A program made the position numbers and the translations under genes. From NCBI GenBank assembly GCA_947245485.1, contig CAMXOH010000003.1:1-50575 (forward strand): 50,575 nt of DNA, written 5' to 3'. The notes beneath the pieces were generated by a model that made no database searches, was not told the DNA's origin, and worked only from the letters and a program-made list of their open reading frames with translations. The stretch is from an uncultured Clostridia bacterium. Its GTDB lineage: Bacteria > Bacillota > Clostridia > Christensenellales > Borkfalkiaceae. Of the stretch, positions 1 through 50,575 are shown piece by piece; positions within the stretch are counted from its first letter, which is position 1; each line of letters starts with the position of its first letter.

Positions 1-492
1 ATATTTATTCAATTTTAGAACGGAGAAGGAACGAAGGTGATACGGAGGTGATACGGAGAAGTGACGAAAAAGTAGCGGAAAAGCAGTGGAAAGACAAAAA
101 AACAGAATCTTCGGGAAGGCTCCGAAAGGAGATTTTTTTTGTTTTTTTAGCAGTACGTTAACCAAGATTTAACGTCCGGACGAGAACCCTCCGGAGCCTT
201 CTTCTCATAAAAACAGAAAAAGATACTCGAAAACAATTCTCACAATAGTATTGAGCAGAATTTAAACAGGCTCTTAGTAAATCAAACGTTCTTATGAATT
301 CAAATTTGAAACTGAATGTTATGTGTCGGAGACACGAAAAGTAAAGGTACAAAATTTAAAAAGTAACCAATATATAACATTCATTATTTCAGGCGGTTAG
401 AACACATGAATGTTACGCATGGATTGGTCGCACGGGTTACTAATAGTTGGTCGCACATTATGCACACTATTTTTTTAAAGTGTAGCAAAGGT

Positions 493-6155: not shown

Positions 6156-8207
6156 ATGAGCAAAAAAGCAATCATCAAACGTCTAAGCCTTGTAAATTTC
6201 AAAGGCTTGCGCAACGTCGTTATAGACTTTAACGACACAGTTACAACCATAAGCGGACGGAACGGCACGGGAAAGACTACCATAATGGACGCTTTTACAT
6301 GGCTTCTTTGGGGCAAAGACAGCGAAGGCAACGTAGATAGTAAGTTCGGAATTAAGACCAACGACGCAGAAGGTAACTTTATTCCCGACCTTGAACACGA
6401 GGTAGCCGGAACGTTGGAAATAATAGATACCGAAACGGGAAGTGTTGAAACCGTAGAACTCCGTCGCGTATTGGTTGAAGAATGGAAAACAGAGAAGGGA
6501 AAGACGGAAAGGAAGTTAAAGGGACATCATACCGACTACTTCTATAACGGAGTACCATTAAAAACAAAAGGCGAATACGACGAACGTATAAACGCAATTA
6601 TACCCGAAGCTGTTTTCAAGATGATTACCAACCCCTACTATTTCCTTTCCCTTCATTGGACGGCACAACGCGAAATGCTTTTGCAGATAGCCGGGGGCGT
6701 AAGCTACGAAGACATAGCGAAGGGAGATACCGCCTTTGCCGCATTGATAGAACGGCTTAGTGGGAAAACGGTAGAAGACTATAAACGCGAGATTGCAGCG
6801 CAAAAGGAGAAGATAACGAAGGAATTGGAAAAGATACCTACGCGTATTGACGAAATAACGCGTGCTACCCCGCTTACACCGGACTATGCCGCCCTTAACA
6901 CCGAAAAGGAGCAACTTACAAAAGAATTGAACGACATAGACGAAGCCGCCGCATCAGCAGCAGAAGCCAACCGTATCGCCTATGAAGCTGCCGCTAAGGT
7001 ACAAACCGCCATAAATGACAAACGTAGCAGCCAGCACGCATTAGTATTTAAGGCAAAGGAAACGGCAAGGAATGAAGCATTCAAGAAGAACGAAACTTAC
7101 AATAATGCCGACCGTAAGTTACAGCAGGTTATAAACGACGAACGCAGCGAAGCCAGCCGTTACCGTAGTGAATACGACCGTTTGACGAACGAGAAGAAAC
7201 GGACGCAAAGCACAATAGAAGGCTACAAGCAAATGCAGAACGAACTACGCGAAAGATGGTACAAAGTAAACGCCGAAGAATTTACCGCTACGGAAAGTCT
7301 TGTTTGCCCGTTGTTTAAGCACGCTTGCGCCGACCCGGTAGCATTAGCAAAATATAACACCGACCGGGAAGCCGCTCGCGAAAAATTCTATGCAGACCGG
7401 GAAGAACGCCTTAACAAGATTAACACGGACGGTCAGCGGTTAAACGAAATGATAACATCGCAGGAAGAAGAAGCCAACCGGATAGACAAAGCGTTAGCCG
7501 AATTGGAAACCAGCCACACTACCGCCGTAGCAAAGGCGAAAGAAGACCGCGAAGCGTTGCAAAAGGTTTTGAATGACAATCCCCGCGTAAATACCGAACC
7601 GGATATTAACGGAGAAGACCTCCCGGAATGGGTTGCGCTTGAAAAAGAAATAAAGGAACTTTCCGAACAGCTTCCAGCCTTCAACGCGGATGACGCGGCA
7701 AGCAGAACAGAGATACGCCAACGGAAAGCCAACCTTACTGCCCGGCTTGATGAAGTAAAGCGTAAACTAAACCTTCGCACCATTATAGAAGCCAACGAAA
7801 AGCGCATAGCCGAACTAAACGGGGAAGCCGCAAAATTGGCGCAGGAACGCGCCGAAATACAAGGCTGCGAAATAGTAATAGCCGACTTGATAAAAGCCCG
7901 TATGACGGAAGTGGAACGCCGCGTAAACGGATTGTTTAGCCGGGTTCAGTTCAAGATGTACAAAACGCTCGTAAACGGCGAAAAAGAACCGGATTGCATT
8001 TGCCTTATTGACGGGGTAAAATACGCGGATAAGAACCAAGCCGGGAAAGTTAATGCCGGGCTTGACATAATAAACACCCTTTGCACGTTCCACAACGTTA
8101 GCGCGCCTATTTTCGTGGATAACGCAGAAAGTATTAACGAGTTTATCCCGGTTGTTAGCCAGCTTGTAAAGTTGGTAGTAACTACCGAAGACTTCAAAGT
8201 AGAATAA
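6156..8207 (+). CDS. SbcC/Rad50-like AAA ATPase
   Basis: Walker A GRNGTGKTTIMDAF, coiled coil, CPLFKHAC; ATG at 6156. Confidence 0.88.
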   Translation: MSKKAIIKRLSLVNFKGLRNVVIDFNDTVTTISGRNGTGKTTIMDAFTWLLWGKDSEGNVDSKFGIKTNDAEGNFIPDLEHEVAGTLEIIDTETGSVETVELRRVLVEEWKTEKGKTERKLKGHHTDYFYNGVPLKTKGEYDERINAIIPEAVFKMITNPYYFLSLHWTAQREMLLQIAGGVSYEDIAKGDTAFAALIERLSGKTVEDYKREIAAQKEKITKELEKIPTRIDEITRATPLTPDYAALNTEKEQLTKELNDIDEAAASAAEANRIAYEAAAKVQTAINDKRSSQHALVFKAKETARNEAFKKNETYNNADRKLQQVINDERSEASRYRSEYDRLTNEKKRTQSTIEGYKQMQNELRERWYKVNAEEFTATESLVCPLFKHACADPVALAKYNTDREAAREKFYADREERLNKINTDGQRLNEMITSQEEEANRIDKALAELETSHTTAVAKAKEDREALQKVLNDNPRVNTEPDINGEDLPEWVALEKEIKELSEQLPAFNADDAASRTEIRQRKANLTARLDEVKRKLNLRTIIEANEKRIAELNGEAAKLAQERAEIQGCEIVIADLIKARMTEVERRVNGLFSRVQFKMYKTLVNGEKEPDCICLIDGVKYADKNQAGKVNAGLDIINTLCTFHNVSAPIFVDNAESINEFIPVVSQLVKLVVTTEDFKVE

Positions 8208-8239: not shown

Positions 8240-8977
8240 ATGAATACAGAAAAGAAAATCGCGTCTTACGAGGACGCTTGTAGAGTTTTGAACATTCAAC
8301 CGATTAACGAAGAAGCGTTTAACATATTCCCGAAGGAAGACCAAAGAAGCATGTTAGCCTACCACAAGCTGACAGTAATAACCCGCGCACTTAATAACGG
8401 TTGGAAGCCGAATTGGGACGACCAAAACGAATGGAAGTATTACCCGCTATTCCGTTATGTAAATGCCGGGCTTTCGTACGCGTATACGAATAACTCGGCT
8501 ACGTATACGATCGCGTATATCGGCTCTCGGCTTTGCTTTCCCACGTCCGCGCTCGCGAAATACGCAGCCGAACACTTTGCGGACTTGTATCGTGACTATT
8601 ATTGCTTTGCTTCGGGAAACGGAGAAACGCAACAAGCGGAAAGCAGCCAAGAAGAACCCCAAAGCGACTTTTTGAAGACCACCACAGAAGTAATGCAAAA
8701 GCATTTAGTACCATTATGTAACGGAAGCAGTTCACGCGGTCTTATCGTAGTAGGTTGCGACACAGATACGAAAGATAAAAACGGCGAAGACAGTACCGGA
8801 GTAATGGTAGGTTTTTGCGGAAATTATGGAGCCATAATAAAGGGCTTGAAAGAACTTCTTACCGGAAAGCAGTCCGCGCCGATAGTAGAACGGGCAACCC
8901 GCGAAATAGCTTTTGAAAAGATGATTAAAGGCGGTGGAATAGAGAGCTTTTTAAAGGACATAATGAACAACAATTAA
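8240..8977 (+). CDS. DGR target protein 1 (early region), YEDAC...GSRLCF domain with internal VR1 and a C-terminal extension
   Basis: Contains VR1 (AGLSYAYTNNSATYTIAYIGSRLCF); paralogous to 10997-11545. Confidence 0.85.
   Translation: MNTEKKIASYEDACRVLNIQPINEEAFNIFPKEDQRSMLAYHKLTVITRALNNGWKPNWDDQNEWKYYPLFRYVNAGLSYAYTNNSATYTIAYIGSRLCFPTSALAKYAAEHFADLYRDYYCFASGNGETQQAESSQEEPQSDFLKTTTEVMQKHLVPLCNGSSSRGLIVVGCDTDTKDKNGEDSTGVMVGFCGNYGAIIKGLKELLTGKQSAPIVERATREIAFEKMIKGGGIESFLKDIMNNN
8462..8537 (+). repeat. DGR variable repeat VR1
   Basis: Aligned ungapped to TR 47141-47216: 5 adenine-position substitutions and 1 T->C outside the IMH; shares the IMH GGCTCTCGGCTTTGCT with VR2/VR3. Confidence 0.88.
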
Positions 8978-10996: not shown

Positions 10997-11545
10997 ATGA
11001 AAAAGATTTGTTTATACAGAAAAGAGAACGGGAACGAGAATTTACAAGGCAGATACGACAACGTAGAAGAAGCGCAAGACACCGTAAAGAAACTTACCGA
11101 AGACGAAGGGAACGGTAGTATTTTCGATTACTTCTACAAGGAAGAAGACTACGAGGAAATAACCGACCGGGTAAAGACCTACGAAGACGCATGTAAGGTA
11201 TTAGGCGTAGAACCGATAAACGAACAAAACGCGAAGGCGCAAGGCTTCAGATCGGACGAAATAGCACGCCGCAAATTGGAAACTATTGCCGCAGCACTTA
11301 ACGAAGGCTGGAAACCGGATTGGAACAATACCGACCAATACAAATACTACCCTTACTTCTATATACAAGAAAACGCGAAAGGCAAAGGTTCTGCCGGGCT
11401 TTCGTTCGCGTATACGAATCGCGCGGCTTCGTATACGTTTGCGGTTATCGGCTCTCGGCTTTGCTTCTACGCTTCACGTTTGGCACGGTACGCGGGCAAC
11501 CAATTTACAGACTTATACGAACAAATTTTAATTGAGAAGCTATGA
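10997..11545 (+). CDS. DGR target protein 2 (early region), YEDAC...GSRLCF domain with VR2
   Basis: Contains VR2 (AGLSFAYTNRAASYTFAVIGSRLCF); paralogous to 8240-8977. Confidence 0.87.
   Translation: MKKICLYRKENGNENLQGRYDNVEEAQDTVKKLTEDEGNGSIFDYFYKEEDYEEITDRVKTYEDACKVLGVEPINEQNAKAQGFRSDEIARRKLETIAAALNEGWKPDWNNTDQYKYYPYFYIQENAKGKGSAGLSFAYTNRAASYTFAVIGSRLCFYASRLARYAGNQFTDLYEQILIEKL
11390..11465 (+). repeat. DGR variable repeat VR2
   Basis: Aligned ungapped to TR 47141-47216: 13 substitutions, all at TR adenines, plus the shared IMH. Confidence 0.93.
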
Positions 11546-12704: not shown

Positions 12705-13565
12705 ATGGGCGATAAAAATTCATTCGTATTATATATGGATTTGCTTTCAGTGCTTGATGAACTTGACGACGAAGAAACGGCTATGTTGTTCCGCGCGATT
12801 AGAGCCTATAACCAATTAGAGAGCGAAAACGAAGCTATACGGACGAAGGCTGCGGAAGATTTGGAAGCAATGACGGCGAACAAAACCGTTAGGATAGCAT
12901 TTGCACCCATCCGAAAACGTCTTGAAGCTGATAACAAGCGTTACGCGGAAACAGTGCAGTTGAATAAAGCTAACGGCAAATTAGGGGGCGCGCCTAAAGG
13001 TAATCAGAACGCACGAAAGAAGAAAAAGAATACGGAAACCGAGGAAACAAGCCAAAACAACCCAAACAACCGGGCGGTTGATTTTTCAACCGAAACAACC
13101 GAAGGGTTGAAAAAACAAGCGAAAACAACCGAAAACAACATTGATATGATATGTAATGATGTTGATATGATTAATAATAATTCTCCTTCTCTTCTTTCTC
13201 TTGATGGCGTGCGCGAGAAAAAAAACATAAACGGCAAGGAAACCGAAAACAGTAAGTTTCTAACCGAATTTTTCAGCGAAAACAAAAGGGCGCAGATAGA
13301 AACCATTTGCATGCAGCTTTATGTCACTCCCGAACGATTGCGCAAGGAAGCCGAAGAAGTTATAGACGAATGGGAACTAACCGGAGATACCCACATAAAT
13401 TATACCGAATGGGCGCGGCATTTGATTAATCATCTAAGAATTAAAATAAGGAAAGACAATGGGAACAACAGAGAACAAAAAGCAGGAGCAACCGATACAA
13501 CGGATAGACATAGTGGCATTTGCGAACCTGCTACGCAAAAGAAGCCCCGCCGTAGCACGCTTTAA
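12705..13565 (+). CDS. DUF6291-like replication-associated protein
   Basis: N-terminus SFVLYMDLLSVLDELDDEETAMLFRAIRAYN; followed by a DnaC-like gene. Confidence 0.7.
   Translation: MGDKNSFVLYMDLLSVLDELDDEETAMLFRAIRAYNQLESENEAIRTKAAEDLEAMTANKTVRIAFAPIRKRLEADNKRYAETVQLNKANGKLGGAPKGNQNARKKKKNTETEETSQNNPNNRAVDFSTETTEGLKKQAKTTENNIDMICNDVDMINNNSPSLLSLDGVREKKNINGKETENSKFLTEFFSENKRAQIETICMQLYVTPERLRKEAEEVIDEWELTGDTHINYTEWARHLINHLRIKIRKDNGNNREQKAGATDTTDRHSGICEPATQKKPRRSTL
13050..13223. repeat. Iteron-rich direct repeat, copy 1 (within CDS 12705-13565)
   Basis: Near-identical to 29133-29297; multiple AACAACCG-type motifs. Confidence 0.85.
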
Positions 13566-14175
13566 GATTGACCGTTATACGCAGGACGTACCCGCCATGC
13601 TACGCGAATGTTACCGTTTCCAAGTTGAAAACCGGGGCTATTCTTACCAAGAAGACGAAGCGACAAGGCAGCATCTTACAATGGCGGCGCGTTGGCTCGT
13701 TGGCGAAAGCATGAAACCGGGGTTATTCATGTACGGAACACCCGGATGCGGAAAGACAACATTAGCGCGTGCAATTTCCCAGCTAATAAATACGATTTAC
13801 CATAGCGATATATCGTTTGAACGTAAAGGCGTTTCCTTTATTCCGGCTTCCGCACTTACGGAAGCAGCGAAGGGGGAAAAGCAGGAACTTTTAGCGGACT
13901 TGAAAAATACCGAGCTTCTTTGCATCGACGACGTAGGGACGGAACCAGCAAGCCTAAAGGTTTGGGGAAACGAGGTTAGCCCGTTGGTAGATTTGCTATA
14001 CCACCGTTACGACCGCCAGTTATTCACGATTATAACCTCAAACTTGGAAGGCGACGAAGATATAGCCAAGCGTTACGGGGTTCGTGTAGCCGACCGATTT
14101 GTAGAGATGTTCGACCTTATAGGCTTCGATAATTCAAGTTACCGACCAAGACTAACAAAGCTAACACCGCGATAG
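13459..14175 (+). CDS. DnaC-like AAA+ ATPase / helicase loader
   Basis: Walker A GTPGCGKTTLARAI, Walker B LLCIDDVG. Confidence 0.88.
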   Translation: MGTTENKKQEQPIQRIDIVAFANLLRKRSPAVARFKIDRYTQDVPAMLRECYRFQVENRGYSYQEDEATRQHLTMAARWLVGESMKPGLFMYGTPGCGKTTLARAISQLINTIYHSDISFERKGVSFIPASALTEAAKGEKQELLADLKNTELLCIDDVGTEPASLKVWGNEVSPLVDLLYHRYDRQLFTIITSNLEGDEDIAKRYGVRVADRFVEMFDLIGFDNSSYRPRLTKLTPR

Positions 14176-30266: not shown

Positions 30267-30854
30267 ATGGGATTGAAGATAGACAGAAAGCAGGACAAAC
30301 GTGTAGTACACGCTTGTACGCACATGCTGGCGGACATTCCTAACGGCGTTACCGTTTGCTCTTCCGAATTGGTTGCGGGCGGTATTTTGCAGGAAGGGAC
30401 GGCATTAGGCGGCAAAGACGCTGCCGGGCTTTACCACGTAGTAAAGACCGCAAGGCTTACCGAAGACGCTACCGCCACTACAAAAGCCTACAAGGTGGCG
30501 AAAGGACATCATTTCAAAGTAGGCGATTTTATCATGTTGAAGGTAGGCGCAAAGGCTTACAAGATTACATCTATCAACACGTCGGAAACGCTTTACGACA
30601 CCATCAACGTAGGCACTACTTTAGGAGAAGCCGCCACAGCAGGCGCAGCCCTTGTACTTGCCGCCGCTGAAAGCGCGGACACTACAAGCGCGTTCAAGTA
30701 CGTGCCTAAAGCCATGACGGGCGACAGCTACGACGTGGAAGCCCTTAATAACCACTTTGTAACAGCGGTTACTATCGGGCAGTTCAAAGAGAGTGTTATC
30801 CCGGCAGTAAGCGACGACATTAAAGCCGCTTTACCCGGTATCAGTTTAATTTAA
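30267..30854 (+). CDS. Putative head decoration/head fibre protein
   Basis: Between scaffold and major capsid genes; Ala/Thr/Gly-rich 195 aa. Confidence 0.6.
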   Translation: MGLKIDRKQDKRVVHACTHMLADIPNGVTVCSSELVAGGILQEGTALGGKDAAGLYHVVKTARLTEDATATTKAYKVAKGHHFKVGDFIMLKVGAKAYKITSINTSETLYDTINVGTTLGEAATAGAALVLAAAESADTTSAFKYVPKAMTGDSYDVEALNNHFVTAVTIGQFKESVIPAVSDDIKAALPGISLI

Positions 30855-30868
30855 TTGGGCTCTAAGTT

Positions 30869-31972
30869 ATGATTAAGACTTTAATGCGCGGTCTTGTAGA
30901 GAAAGATATGCAAGCCGTGATTAATACTTACGATTTGAAGCCCTACTACTATCCTACGCTTTTCCCGTTGAAGGAAACTTATACCTTGACATGGAAGGCT
31001 TTGGAAGCGCAGGTAGGGCTTAAAATAGCCGCCGACTTGGTGGCACGCGGGGCGACAATTGACAAAAAGACCCGCGATGCGATTGCACGTTTGCAGGGGG
31101 ACATCCCGAAAATTGCCGTAAAGCGTACCAAGAACGAAGACGAACTTACGGACTACGAAGTAATGTTAGCCATGACTTCGCAGAACCCCGACCTTCGCGC
31201 ATTGGTTGAAGCATGGGCAGAAGACACTAATTTCTGCTGGACGGCAGTAGCCGCCCGTTTGGAATGGATGGCTTTGCAGGAAATCTCTTTGGGTAAGATT
31301 ACACTTACCAACGAAAACAACGGTTCAGTAATCAGCGAATACGATGTAGATTACCAAATCCCAGCCGAAAGAAAGTTAGGCTTCCAAACCGGCTCGGCTT
31401 CTTGGGCTACTTCCGCTTCCGCGAAACCTATATCTAAGGACTTCAAGAACGTTGTAAAGGCAGCGAAGAAAGAGGGCGTATCTTTGAAATTCGCGTTTAT
31501 GTCCCTTGACACGTTCGCGACTTTCGCGGAAACCGCAGAAGTACAGAAAATCTGCGCTTCTTTCGCCGTGAACGCCTTGAACCTCCAGCAAACGCCAAGC
31601 CTTGAACAAGTAAACAGCGCAATGAAAACGCTTCCCTACTTGAAGGGCTTGCAACTTGTTGTGATTGACCAAGATATTACCGTAGAACTTCCCAACGGTG
31701 ACAGATACACCGGAAACCCGTTTACCGAGAACGTGGTACTGTTCACAGAAAGCAAAGTATTGGGACAAACTTACTGGAAGAAGCCCGCAGACATGAACGT
31801 AAAAGGTTCAGTAGCGATTAAGGCTTTGAACGGTCACACCCTTATAAAGAAGTTCGCTAACGAAGAACCTTTGGAAGAGGTTACTATGGGTATCGCAAAC
31901 GCTTTCCCGGCGTGGCTTTCTTCTTCTCGTTCTTGGTTGATGGCTACCAACAGCAACACATGGAATCACTAA
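30869..31972 (+). CDS. Major capsid protein (gpE-like)
   Basis: 367 aa, position and overall pattern. Confidence 0.8.
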   Translation: MIKTLMRGLVEKDMQAVINTYDLKPYYYPTLFPLKETYTLTWKALEAQVGLKIAADLVARGATIDKKTRDAIARLQGDIPKIAVKRTKNEDELTDYEVMLAMTSQNPDLRALVEAWAEDTNFCWTAVAARLEWMALQEISLGKITLTNENNGSVISEYDVDYQIPAERKLGFQTGSASWATSASAKPISKDFKNVVKAAKKEGVSLKFAFMSLDTFATFAETAEVQKICASFAVNALNLQQTPSLEQVNSAMKTLPYLKGLQLVVIDQDITVELPNGDRYTGNPFTENVVLFTESKVLGQTYWKKPADMNVKGSVAIKALNGHTLIKKFANEEPLEEVTMGIANAFPAWLSSSRSWLMATNSNTWNH

Positions 31973-45353: not shown

Positions 45354-46688
45354 ATGGGTTTAATTATTGCAGCGGGCAACACAAAGCCCGCGTTTCCTTA
45401 TGATTACTATTACGGCGTAAAGATTAATATAAACGTGGCAGATACCGCGTTAGAACGCGTAGGAAGACCGGAACTACATGTTTCGCTCCCGGTTCAATCC
45501 CTTATGCGCCGTTGTTTGCTTAACGATGCCGGGCAGGTTGTTACCTACCTTCATCAAACCGACAGTACGAAGACGGACACCGGGGCAGCGGCAGACCTTA
45601 CCGGAGCTTCCGGCATGGTAATGGTAGAAATACCGAAGCACTACCGTAAGTTTGAATTTGACGGTACTACGTTTACCTGCCTTATTTCGCAATACCAGCT
45701 ACCGGGCTTTATCGAAGTACCGAAAATGTACCGGAGCGCATACGAAGCCACGATAGACCGAACTTTATCGGCTACTCCCAAACTTGCCAGCGTGGTAAAT
45801 ACTACGGCTGCTTTCCGGGGCGGCAACAATAATACGGCATGGGACGGAACTTATAGAACCCTATTAGGTCGCCCGGCTACCGCCACATCGCTAACCAACT
45901 TCCGAAAATACGCACGAAACAGAGGTGCAGTAGGATTGAACGGCGCGGGCTGGAACTGCGATTTATACGCGGCACAAAACGCGACCTATTGGCTTTATGT
46001 GGTTGAATACGCCAACCTTAACTGCCAGCTTGATTTTAACGCGCAGCCTACAAGCGAAGGCTACAAGCAGGGCGGATTAAGTGCGGGCGTTACGACGCTT
46101 AACAGTACGAAGTGGAACACATTCAATAGCTACTACCCGTTTGTCCCCTGCGGTACTACAAATTCATTAGGCAACGCTTCGGGCGTAGTTGAATTTACCA
46201 TGCCGGACGAATACGATACGGGCGTAGTAGTTAAAGTAAAAGTACCTTCATACCGGGGAATAGAAAACCCGTTCGGGCATATTTGGAGTTGGACGGACGG
46301 ATGCAAATGCGCTATTGAATCGGATGCGGACGGCGGCGTAAGTTCTTTCTATACTTGCGACAACCCAGCAACCTACCAAGATACCAACTATGACAATTAC
46401 GTAAAACGCGGCGAACTTCCACGTAAGGAAGGTTATGTTAAGCGCATGATGATAGGCGAATACGGGGAAAATATGCCTACGGAAGTGGGCGCAGGTTCTA
46501 CTACCTACTTTGCCGACTACTTCTATACCAACATACCAGCCAGCGGCGTAGCACAAAGGGGTGTCTTGTTCGGCGGTTCTGCGCATAGCGGCGCGTATGC
46601 CGGGCTTTCGTACGCGTATACGAATCACGCGGCTACGACTACGGCTGCGCCTATCGGCTCTCGGCTTTGCTTTATCCCCGCCGCGTAA
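45354..46688 (+). CDS. DGR target protein 3, receptor-binding-type protein with C-type-lectin-like C-terminus
   Basis: ATG at 45354; C-terminal VR3 FGGSAHSGAYAGLSYAYTNHAATTTAAPIGSRLCFIPAA. Confidence 0.9.
   Translation: MGLIIAAGNTKPAFPYDYYYGVKININVADTALERVGRPELHVSLPVQSLMRRCLLNDAGQVVTYLHQTDSTKTDTGAAADLTGASGMVMVEIPKHYRKFEFDGTTFTCLISQYQLPGFIEVPKMYRSAYEATIDRTLSATPKLASVVNTTAAFRGGNNNTAWDGTYRTLLGRPATATSLTNFRKYARNRGAVGLNGAGWNCDLYAAQNATYWLYVVEYANLNCQLDFNAQPTSEGYKQGGLSAGVTTLNSTKWNTFNSYYPFVPCGTTNSLGNASGVVEFTMPDEYDTGVVVKVKVPSYRGIENPFGHIWSWTDGCKCAIESDADGGVSSFYTCDNPATYQDTNYDNYVKRGELPRKEGYVKRMMIGEYGENMPTEVGAGSTTYFADYFYTNIPASGVAQRGVLFGGSAHSGAYAGLSYAYTNHAATTTAAPIGSRLCFIPAA
46559..46671 (+). repeat. DGR variable repeat VR3
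   Basis: Aligned ungapped to TR 47104-47216 (offset 545): 14 substitutions, all at TR adenines, plus the IMH. Confidence 0.96.
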
Positions 46689-46731: not shown

Positions 46732-47076
46732 ATGACTTCAAACAATAATAGCACAGATGATGGTAGCCTTTCGTTCTTGAACATTCAACCGGACGAAGCG
46801 AACAAACATTTTAACTGCCCGGAAACCACCCAGCAGAAACTAATCAATTTGCAGTTTTGGTTAATTGATTTTATCGAAGACGTGAAAACGAAATTCGGTG
46901 CGAACCGTTTCCTCGTGAAAATAAAGTTCAAGAAGGACGACCCCGAAAGCGAAGCAAAGAAGTTCTTTACAAATTCCAGCGAAATAAAATACATTTTGCA
47001 GGAAATAAAGAAGCGTAACGCCTTCCCGCGAAAGGTAACTATGCGGGCTTCGGGAACGCGCTATTATTTTGAGTAG
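46732..47076 (+). CDS. Small protein between target and TR; candidate DGR accessory protein
   Basis: 114 aa, Lys-rich, in the usual accessory-gene position; no recognisable Avd signature. Confidence 0.65.
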   Translation: MTSNNNSTDDGSLSFLNIQPDEANKHFNCPETTQQKLINLQFWLIDFIEDVKTKFGANRFLVKIKFKKDDPESEAKKFFTNSSEIKYILQEIKKRNAFPRKVTMRASGTRYYFE

Positions 47077-47103: not shown

Positions 47104-47216
47104 GGGTGTCTTGTTCGGCGGTAATGCGAATAACAGCGCGAATGCCGGGCTTTCGTACGCGAATACGAATAACACGGCTACGAATACGAATGCGAATATC
47201 GGCTCTCAGCTATACT
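47104..47216 (+). repeat. DGR template repeat (TR)
   Basis: AAY/ACG-rich; source-like for VR1-3; ends with IMH*-like GGCTCTCAGCTATACT; immediately upstream of RT. Confidence 0.96.
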
Positions 47217-47334
47217 GATTTTTTTTGTAAAGCTAATAAGGACAAAGACCGCTCCGGAAGGCGGAAAATATTAACCATTAACGGGGTTTGGTAGGGAAAC
47301 CGAAGAACACCATTTAATCAGCAAAGAAATTACT

Positions 47335-48369
47335 ATGAAAAGGTTAGGCAACCTTTACGACCAAATAATAAGTTTGGATAATTTGCACCTTGCGGACGAA
47401 CGCGCCCGCAAGGGCAAACTACATTCCTACGGCGTAAAGTTACACGACCGCAACAAGGAAGCCAACCTTTTGTCTTTGCACGAAGCACTGAAAGCAGGAA
47501 CTTACAGAACTTCGGAATATAGTACCTTTACGATATACGAGCCTAAAGAACGCGAGATTTTCCGTTTGCCATACTTTCCCGACCGGATTGTACATCATGC
47601 CGTAATGAACATTTTAGAGCCTATATGGGTGTCTATTTTCACGGCGGACACTTATAGCTGCATCAAAGGGCGTGGCATACAAGCGGCGGCAAACAAGTTA
47701 AGGCACGTTATCGACAAAGATAAGGCAGGCTGCGCGTATTGCTTGAAAATAGACATACGCAAATTTTACCCTTCCATAGACCATACCGTACTAAAGTCCA
47801 TTGTTCGCCGGAAGATTAAGGACACACGGCTACTCAACCTTTTGGACGAAATAATAGACAGTGCGGAAGGCTTACCGATTGGCAACTACCTTAGCCAATA
47901 TTTAGCAAATCTTGTACTTACCTACTTTGACCATTGGGTAAAGGAAGTAAAGCGGGTAAGGTACTATTTCAGATACGCTGACGACATTGTAGTATTACAT
48001 AGCGATAAAAAGACGCTTCACGCTTTGCTGGCAGAGTTTGAAAGCTATTTGACGGCTAACGTAAAGCTGGAAATCAAACAGAACAAACAAGTTTTTCCGG
48101 TGGCACGCGACCACCGCGACAGCTTCGGGCGTGGTATTGATTTCTTGGGCTATGTATTCTATTTGAACGAAACACGGCTTAGGAAGCGTATCAAACAGAA
48201 CCTTTGCCGCAAGATAGCTAAATTACGGAAACGGAAGAAACCGTTAAGCGAGGATGAATTTAAGCAGACGTTAGCCGCGTGGTGGGGTTGGGCTAAATAC
48301 AGCGACAGCGAATATTTAATTAACAAGTTAAACAAAATTACACCTTATGAAATCAAGTTCAAACGTTAG
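47335..48369 (+). CDS. DGR-type reverse transcriptase
   Basis: LKIDIRKFYPSIDH, GLPIGNYLSQYLANL (IGxxxSQ), YYFRYADDIVVL (YADD), FLGYVF; 344 aa with no maturase domain seen. Confidence 0.97.
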   Translation: MKRLGNLYDQIISLDNLHLADERARKGKLHSYGVKLHDRNKEANLLSLHEALKAGTYRTSEYSTFTIYEPKEREIFRLPYFPDRIVHHAVMNILEPIWVSIFTADTYSCIKGRGIQAAANKLRHVIDKDKAGCAYCLKIDIRKFYPSIDHTVLKSIVRRKIKDTRLLNLLDEIIDSAEGLPIGNYLSQYLANLVLTYFDHWVKEVKRVRYYFRYADDIVVLHSDKKTLHALLAEFESYLTANVKLEIKQNKQVFPVARDHRDSFGRGIDFLGYVFYLNETRLRKRIKQNLCRKIAKLRKRKKPLSEDEFKQTLAAWWGWAKYSDSEYLINKLNKITPYEIKFKR

Positions 48370-50558: not shown

Positions 50559-50575
50559 GCGGTGCGTACGGGACT
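50559..50575 (-). other. Right attachment site core and likely 3' terminus of a tRNA gene truncated by the window edge
   Basis: Minus strand AGT-CCCGT-ACGCACC-G fits T-loop end, T-stem, acceptor strand and discriminator; core identical to 557-569. Confidence 0.5.

Follow-up and report, generated by a model that had tools for sequence, protein, structure and literature searches.

A gut-bacterial prophage-like region whose DGR has a target in a tail gene and two remote targets in early-region genes of the phrog_11581 family

The window, i.e. the whole stretch of 50,575 nt that was analysed, contains within a prophage-like region a DGR cassette (45.3-48.4 kb), in which a tail gene ending with a VR, a small gene, the template repeat (TR) and the reverse transcriptase (RT) follow one another:

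45354..46688, + strand: tail protein gene with VR3 at its C-terminal end (phrog_5302 'tail protein', E=5e-130)
46559..46673, + strand: VR3, full-length, about 115 nt, with 18 of 31 A positions changed and 1 other change
46732..47076, + strand: small DGR-linked gene adjoining the TR (phrog_19665, E=5.5e-34)
47104..47218, + strand: TR with IMH*; only the 3' ~76 nt (47141-47216) serve VR1 and VR2
47335..48369, + strand: DGR-type RT (PF00078, E=1.4e-19; motifs YADD and LPIGNYLSQ, the latter of the GxxxSQ type)

The hallmarks of a DGR are met here: an RT with YxDD and GxxxSQ motifs, a TR near the RT and VRs changed almost only at TR adenines. The IMH/IMH* pattern is present as well, CTCGGCTTTGCT being common to VR1, VR2 and VR3 and the TR having CTCAGCTATACT. 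Searches of Pfam and PHROG gave no match for an Avd-type accessory protein, and the cassette has the phrog_19665 gene instead. Genes of this family, the function of which is unknown, were found beside RTs not only in the window (46732-47076) but also in loci L150 (9540-9833) and L223 (9991-10305), where they come after the RT; their product may be an accessory protein of these RTs, replacing Avd. A hairpin downstream of the VR is a feature of the BPP-1 DGR that is not universal among DGRs, and near VR1-3 no perfect stem of at least 6 bp (loop of 3-12) was found within 120 nt. A 13-bp direct repeat, GCGGTGCGTACGG, lies near both window ends (557-569 and 50559-50571), with an integrase gene at 709-2016, and the similarity of a Phocaeicola contig (L304) to the window ends at about 555. 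These repeats are possible att sites, in which case the prophage would be complete and about 50.0 kb long.

The remote targets lie in two genes, hereafter gene 1 and gene 2, of another part of the window (L001 and L138 are the near relatives described below):

6156..8207, + strand: SbcC-like ATPase gene, upstream of gene 1 (phrog_77, E=4.4e-64; AAA_23, E=1.2e-18)
8240..8977, + strand: gene 1, remote DGR target, 245 aa (phrog_11581, E=1.2e-35); core of residues 1-125 plus a lineage-specific C-terminal domain
8462..8537, + strand: VR1, codons 75-99 of gene 1; ungapped TR match, A-directed divergence from L001 and L138
8989..9816, + strand: gene at the RecT position of a recombination operon; no family match, placed by gene order relative to phage Versailles
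9819..10571, + strand: metallo-beta-lactamase-fold hydrolase (PF12706, E=1.9e-9; phrog_392, E=2.5e-73)
10997..11545, + strand: gene 2, remote DGR target, 182 aa (phrog_11581, E=2.8e-36), paralogue of gene 1
11390..11465, + strand: VR2, in gene 2; 53/53 non-A positions as in the TR, 16/23 A positions changed, divergence from L138
11542..11814, + strand: HU-like DNA-binding protein, directly after gene 2 (phrog_379, E=2.5e-26)
13459..14175, + strand: DnaC-like helicase loader, same early region (phrog_50, E=1.1e-33)

This order, from the SbcC-like gene through gene 1, the RecT position, the hydrolase, gene 2 and the HU-like gene to the helicase loader, is kept in relatives. An earlier note made from the DNA letters alone had placed gene 1 between an SbcC-like and a RecT-like gene. 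The first neighbour is indeed SbcC-like (phrog_77, E=4e-64), but the second matches nothing in Pfam, PHROG or NCBIfam and is not significantly similar to the phage Versailles RecT, so that 'RecT-like' can at best be a putative name, resting only on its position in the conserved gene order. Gene 2 is 50% identical to gene 1 over residues 6-120, and orthologues of gene 1 are present in L001, L138, G203-G205 and G207. No known domain was found in gene 1 by searches of Pfam, NCBIfam, PADLOC, PDB sequences and PDB folds, its matches in PHROG and in the viral library being restricted to phrog_11581 and uncharacterised phage proteins; gene 2 likewise has no match in Pfam, NCBIfam or PADLOC. The C-terminal domain of gene 1 has no match in the phage collection and, among viral contigs, only that in L001, while relatives of the G205/G207 type have a comparable extension. 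A hydrophobic segment was found in neither protein, a plasmid search gave no match, and in an alignment of 16 sequences (A1) no stretch was sufficiently conserved for scanning collections. The genes next to the two targets are recombination genes, with no recognisable counter-defence gene among them.

The match of VR1 to TR 47141-47216 is ungapped, with 67 of 76 positions identical and 52 of the 53 non-A positions retained. VR2 is identical to the same segment at 60/76 positions (53/53 non-A), and the corresponding segment of VR3, starting at 46596, at 64/76 (53/53 non-A). When the window was scanned without gaps, this part of the TR found exactly three further places, 8462, 11390 and 46596, the next best reaching 37/76. 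Chance similarity of VR1 to the TR is excluded by the same scan, with 67 identities against the 37 of the best unrelated place in the window. Upstream of the IMH, VR1 has exactly five A-position changes and one non-A change (AAT->ATC), while three more differences fall in the IMH/IMH* stretch, every one opposite a TR adenine. Its 3' end (about 8518-8537) is an in-frame IMH, translated IGSRLCF. The similarity of VR1 and of VR2 to the TR begins at the same TR position (about 47141-47143), from which we deduce that the early targets are both limited to the 3' 76 nt, whereas VR3 uses about 115 nt. The description given in the earlier note was accurate in most respects: its count of five A changes, one non-A change and a shared IMH is exact up to the IMH, the reading frame of VR1 is that of VR3 (relative to the TR, all three VRs share one frame), the distance to the template, given as ~38.7 kb, is 38,679 nt, and VR1 is internal, codons 75-99 of 245 being followed by 146 aa where ~145 had been announced. 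It nevertheless understated the case, as there is a second remote target, VR2, in a paralogous gene and with all 53 non-A positions kept.

Two near relatives of the phage were compared with the window: L001 (IMGVR_UViG_3300005461_001023), a viral contig from another sample that is 99.4% identical over 10,393 bp, and L138, a Phocaeicola MAG, 95.6% identical over 16.6 kb. Among the three, natural VR variation is limited nearly to A sites. Between the window and L001, VR1 differs at 9 of 21 TR-adenine sites, at 1 of 47 other VR sites and at 4 of 670 sites in the rest of the gene, an enrichment at A sites with a Fisher p of 4.9e-5 relative to the other VR sites and of 2.1e-12 relative to the rest of the gene; over the whole L001 contig, 10/68 VR1 sites differ vs 55/10,324 elsewhere. 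For L138 the corresponding figures are 10/21, 2/47 and 32/670 in VR1, and 11/21, 0/47 and 9/340 in VR2 and gene 2. The VR changes are nearly all nonsynonymous (11 nonsynonymous and 0 synonymous in VR2 vs L138). Outside the VR, comparison with L138 gives 2 nonsynonymous and 7 synonymous changes for gene 2 and 16 of each for gene 1, which is only moderate constraint. Judged from these genomes, VR1 has demonstrably been diversified in nature, and the comparison of orthologues that the earlier note had proposed as a check comes out as it expected, the two relatives differing in VR1 almost only at TR adenines. A likeness of VR1 to the TR due to ancient paralogy or to a chance repeat, without any DGR activity, for which the one non-A difference of VR1 could be invoked, can be practically dismissed, since the recent divergence between near-identical phages is restricted to A sites and the non-A change is peculiar to the window, the TR base being kept in L001. 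Ancient paralogy without recent A-directed change was also the outcome that would have refuted the earlier note; it is contradicted by the A-directed divergence of VR1 and VR2 from L001 and L138. We therefore take it as almost certain that genes 1 and 2 are DGR targets. The RT of neither relative could be seen (L001 ends before it and the bin of L138 is without one), so DGR activity in these strains is inferred.

A near relative of the phage occurs in a Phocaeicola MAG and none in the genomes from the family or order of the window's own assembly (G000); among the other genomes around the window's bin, 200 at the family level and 395 at the order level, none has a match to gene 1 or to phrog_11581. 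The window contig may be a rare prophage or may have been misbinned. The flank of L001 at 1702-1901 is an inverted copy (84.6%) of window 1-188, which remains unexplained.

Both proteins fit the phrog_11581 family by their profile match and by a conserved layout, KYYPWF, VR, GSRLCF, then a helix. In the family alignment, the columns flanking the VR (KYYPWF, GSRLCF and ELAxYAGxQF) are conserved, and the positions of the TR AAT codons rank with the most variable ones. The conservation of GSRLCF may be due in part to the DNA requirement for an IMH. The full-length AlphaFold model of gene 1 (pLDDT 59) was set aside, but the core model (residues 1-125, with 129 sequences; pLDDT 84, pTM 0.78) is usable except in the VR loop: it has helices at 10-17, 24-27, 32-52 and 103-121, and the VR is a low-confidence loop (residues 72-95). 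The core model had no PDB fold match at E<=0.001, no PDB sequence was matched either, and the top matches in the viral structure library were uncharacterised phage proteins. As for a C-type lectin fold, what can be said is that the core model is helical, that the VR loop is of low confidence and that no fold match exists in the PDB. Homology between the tail protein and the early proteins is not detectable outside the ~26 VR residues, the only columns aligned by hhalign, and gene 1 matches phrog_5302 only at residues 74-103. A common origin of tail and early proteins was accordingly rejected.

Scans of genomes and viral contigs for the family yielded 158 loci with 282 family ORFs, 103 of the loci having a DGR-type RT. 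With a TR accepted at no more than 2 non-A mismatches over 63 nt and at least 3 A changes, a TR was found in the locus for 194 of the 219 family ORFs near such an RT (median of 13 A changes), against none of 523 random control windows; the TRs lie at a median of 170 nt upstream of the RT match, and 86/103 RT loci have at least two targets. As the survey took the family itself as its seed and some of its loci overlap or nearly duplicate one another, it tells how often RT-adjacent members are targets and not how frequently DGRs use the family. Eight of the 282 members exceed the TM-like cut-off. In three Mu-like loci (L150, L174 and L223), MuA and MuB are followed by two family genes and then the RT, with head genes further on and on the opposite strand. 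In six contigs scanned, three complete (G220, G223, G594) and three gapped (G224, G225, G226), TR-linked VRs occur only in family genes, with four of them, all in such genes, in the Dyadobacter prophage G223. In G594 (IMGVR_UViG_3300010206_000044), a stretch at 30763-30882, within a 513-aa frame, matches the family profile in its VR part alone and is not linked to the known TR of that phage. Eight relatives that do have an RT (G203, G204, G205, G207, G209, G210, G215 and G219) have an early family gene with a VR matching their own phage's TR, with 0-1 non-A mismatches over 60-nt stretches; in the data fetched for them, a tail VR is also seen in all but G203. The gene 2 orthologue of G207 (L116:9637-10188) is out of register with the TR, having 12/40 non-A mismatches and a motif that now reads ITQRL, and on this sequence evidence is a natural example of a putatively lapsed DGR target. 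In phage Versailles, a prophage induced from Bacteroides caecimuris I48, a laboratory consortium strain, there is an early target, WAK79127 (L301:7881-8462), between NinB and a replisome organizer, with 0 non-A mismatches over 60 nt; it is annotated 'tail protein', probably because its VR resembles the tail VR. In the crAss-like phage cr56_1 (NC_055890.1) the hypothetical protein gp09 (L299:5070-5477) is a DGR target, again with 0 non-A mismatches over 60 nt; its gene is at the genome end opposite the RT, and the tail protein of this phage is also a target. The family recurs across Bacteroidota phages and seems to exist for diversification.

How can these data be explained? In the most straightforward reading, one prophage DGR would serve three targets, VR3 of the tail protein, VR1 of gene 1 and VR2 of gene 2. 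The RT, erring at adenines, would make cDNA from the TR transcript, and this cDNA would replace the matching segment at any locus with an in-frame IMH (read GSRLCF). Mutagenic retrohoming of 3' TR cDNA to an IMH that is internal and in frame would let the 3' 76 nt of the template diversify an internal loop of two small paralogues encoded in a recombination/replication operon. That the transfer is performed by this RT is inferred. Roux 2021 suggests that VRs are C-terminal because cis-acting elements can then be non-coding (PMC8144416); in the early targets of the window, by contrast, the IMH is coding.

The earlier note had gone on to propose the diversification of an intracellular early protein. 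That the diversified proteins are early and non-structural is supported by the gene order in the window and its relatives, by the Mu-like phages, which place targets and RT between MuA/MuB and the late genes, and by the phage contigs whose only detected targets belong to the family. Their intracellular nature is only inferred, from the absence of hydrophobic segments and from the location, and packaging into the virion is not excluded; likewise, as no expression timing is known, it is an inference that they act in the cytosol early in lytic growth. The function of the diversified early proteins is unproven. Most likely, the variable loop binds a changing host molecule in a phage-host conflict, for example by blocking a defence protein, and not the cell surface, but this too is inferred, with no ligand or phenotype to support it. 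A cytosolic binder is favoured by the lack of a membrane-like segment, the early location and the conservation across phage types, and host conflict by Quimby-like family members that lie near methyltransferases and a tRNA ligase.

Other roles have to be considered. One possibility is that the products of genes 1 and 2 are minor virion or adsorption proteins, merely encoded early, so that diversification would again serve cell-surface binding. The tail protein uses the same VR, and annotation pipelines do label a family member (WAK79127 of Versailles) 'tail protein', but this label is plausibly due to the VR, which is all that gene 1 shares with phrog_5302; given, in addition, the absence of homology to tail proteins outside the VR, the absence of a signal or membrane segment and the early location in integrase-type, Mu-like and Quimby-like phages, we consider this role unlikely. 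It could also be that the early protein is itself sensed by host defence, diversification being then a means of escape (antigenic variation) and not of binding. Confinement of hypervariation to one loop with conserved flanks would fit, as would the multiple copies in many phages (86/103 RT loci with at least two targets); yet gene loss would be an easier escape, whereas the family is kept and multiplied, and DGR targets of known function, such as Mtd of BPP-1, are binders, which makes escape an improbable reason. Finally, VR1 and VR2 might be passive by-products, IMH-bearing sequences hit by collateral homing without selection for diversity. Transfer requires only an IMH and homology, and gene 2 of G207 was not lost although out of TR register (12/40 non-A mismatches). 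Selection for diversity is nevertheless suggested by a target family multiplied and kept with the DGR across Bacteroidota, by phages with no other detected target, and by the preservation of frames, the AAY codons of the TR being unable to turn into stops by A changes alone; there is, in our opinion, very little chance that homing here is purely collateral. We thus retain, as the best explanation and with a little more confidence than doubt, that one DGR has three targets and that its early proteins bind a changing host molecule. Only tentatively do we extend this to phrog_11581-type proteins in general as Bacteroidota-wide early intracellular proteins dedicated to DGR diversification, a mutable repertoire against host defence, and often the sole targets. 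If true, there would be a whole class of phage DGRs unrelated to tail tropism, Mu-like phages included.

The usual explanation of phage DGRs is that they serve to change the host receptor. Here, one template serves a tail protein and two early proteins, so the mutator serves more than host choice, and some phage DGRs appear to serve the phrog_11581 family alone. If the early proteins do bind host factors, phages would possess a directed-mutation system for intracellular conflict. In the literature, to the exclusion of most subscription journals, we found no recognition of one family uniting these targets, no two-paralogue arrangement in a recombination operon and no Mu-like phages whose only detected targets belong to the family.

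The DGR of the Bordetella phage BPP-1, with Mtd as its target, resembles that of the window in RT, TR, A-specific mutagenesis and IMH/IMH*, but has one C-terminal VR, in a tail protein, and its brt is only 34% identical to the RT of the window. Two targets under one DGR are known from the Bacuni phages of Bacteroides uniformis (PMC8143477), where one is distant, and from the tentaclin phages (PMC10743442), where the VR is not C-terminal; unlike those of the window, these targets are described as C-type-lectin, adhesin-like proteins. A survey of induced gut prophages (Nature 2025, PMC12629997) reports, in the part of it available to us, four species of phage in which a VR is distant from the RT and near counter-defence genes, and that part contains no account of the phrog_11581 family, of multi-copy targets or of Mu-like early-only cassettes. 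The closest precedent is Quimbyvirus ('Quimbyviridae'), for which a second, non-structural DGR target, ORF 80/84, was described in a defence-like island (Benler 2021, PMC8008677). As in the window, one TR serves a tail-side target and a remote non-structural one, and the uniqueness that the earlier note implied was too strong, even if the gene itself is borne out as a target. Genes in the same context as the Quimbyvirus target are gp84 of the Quimby-like phage BI-TP1 and gp58 of PV4-TP1. By tblastn (E=3e-8) the former belongs to the same family as gene 1, and it carries an A-only copy of the BI-TP1 TR. Its neighbours include a TIGR02757 gene, methyltransferases and a tRNA ligase, a setting much like that published for Quimbyvirus; the equivalence of gp84 to the Quimbyvirus ORF is inferred from this context, not from sequence. 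A remote non-structural DGR target is thus not unprecedented, and what the window adds are variant features: unlike Quimbyvirus, it has two remote paralogues, placed in a recombination/replication operon and not in a methyltransferase island, their VRs draw only on the 3' 76 nt of the TR, and gene 1 is extended by a further C-terminal domain.
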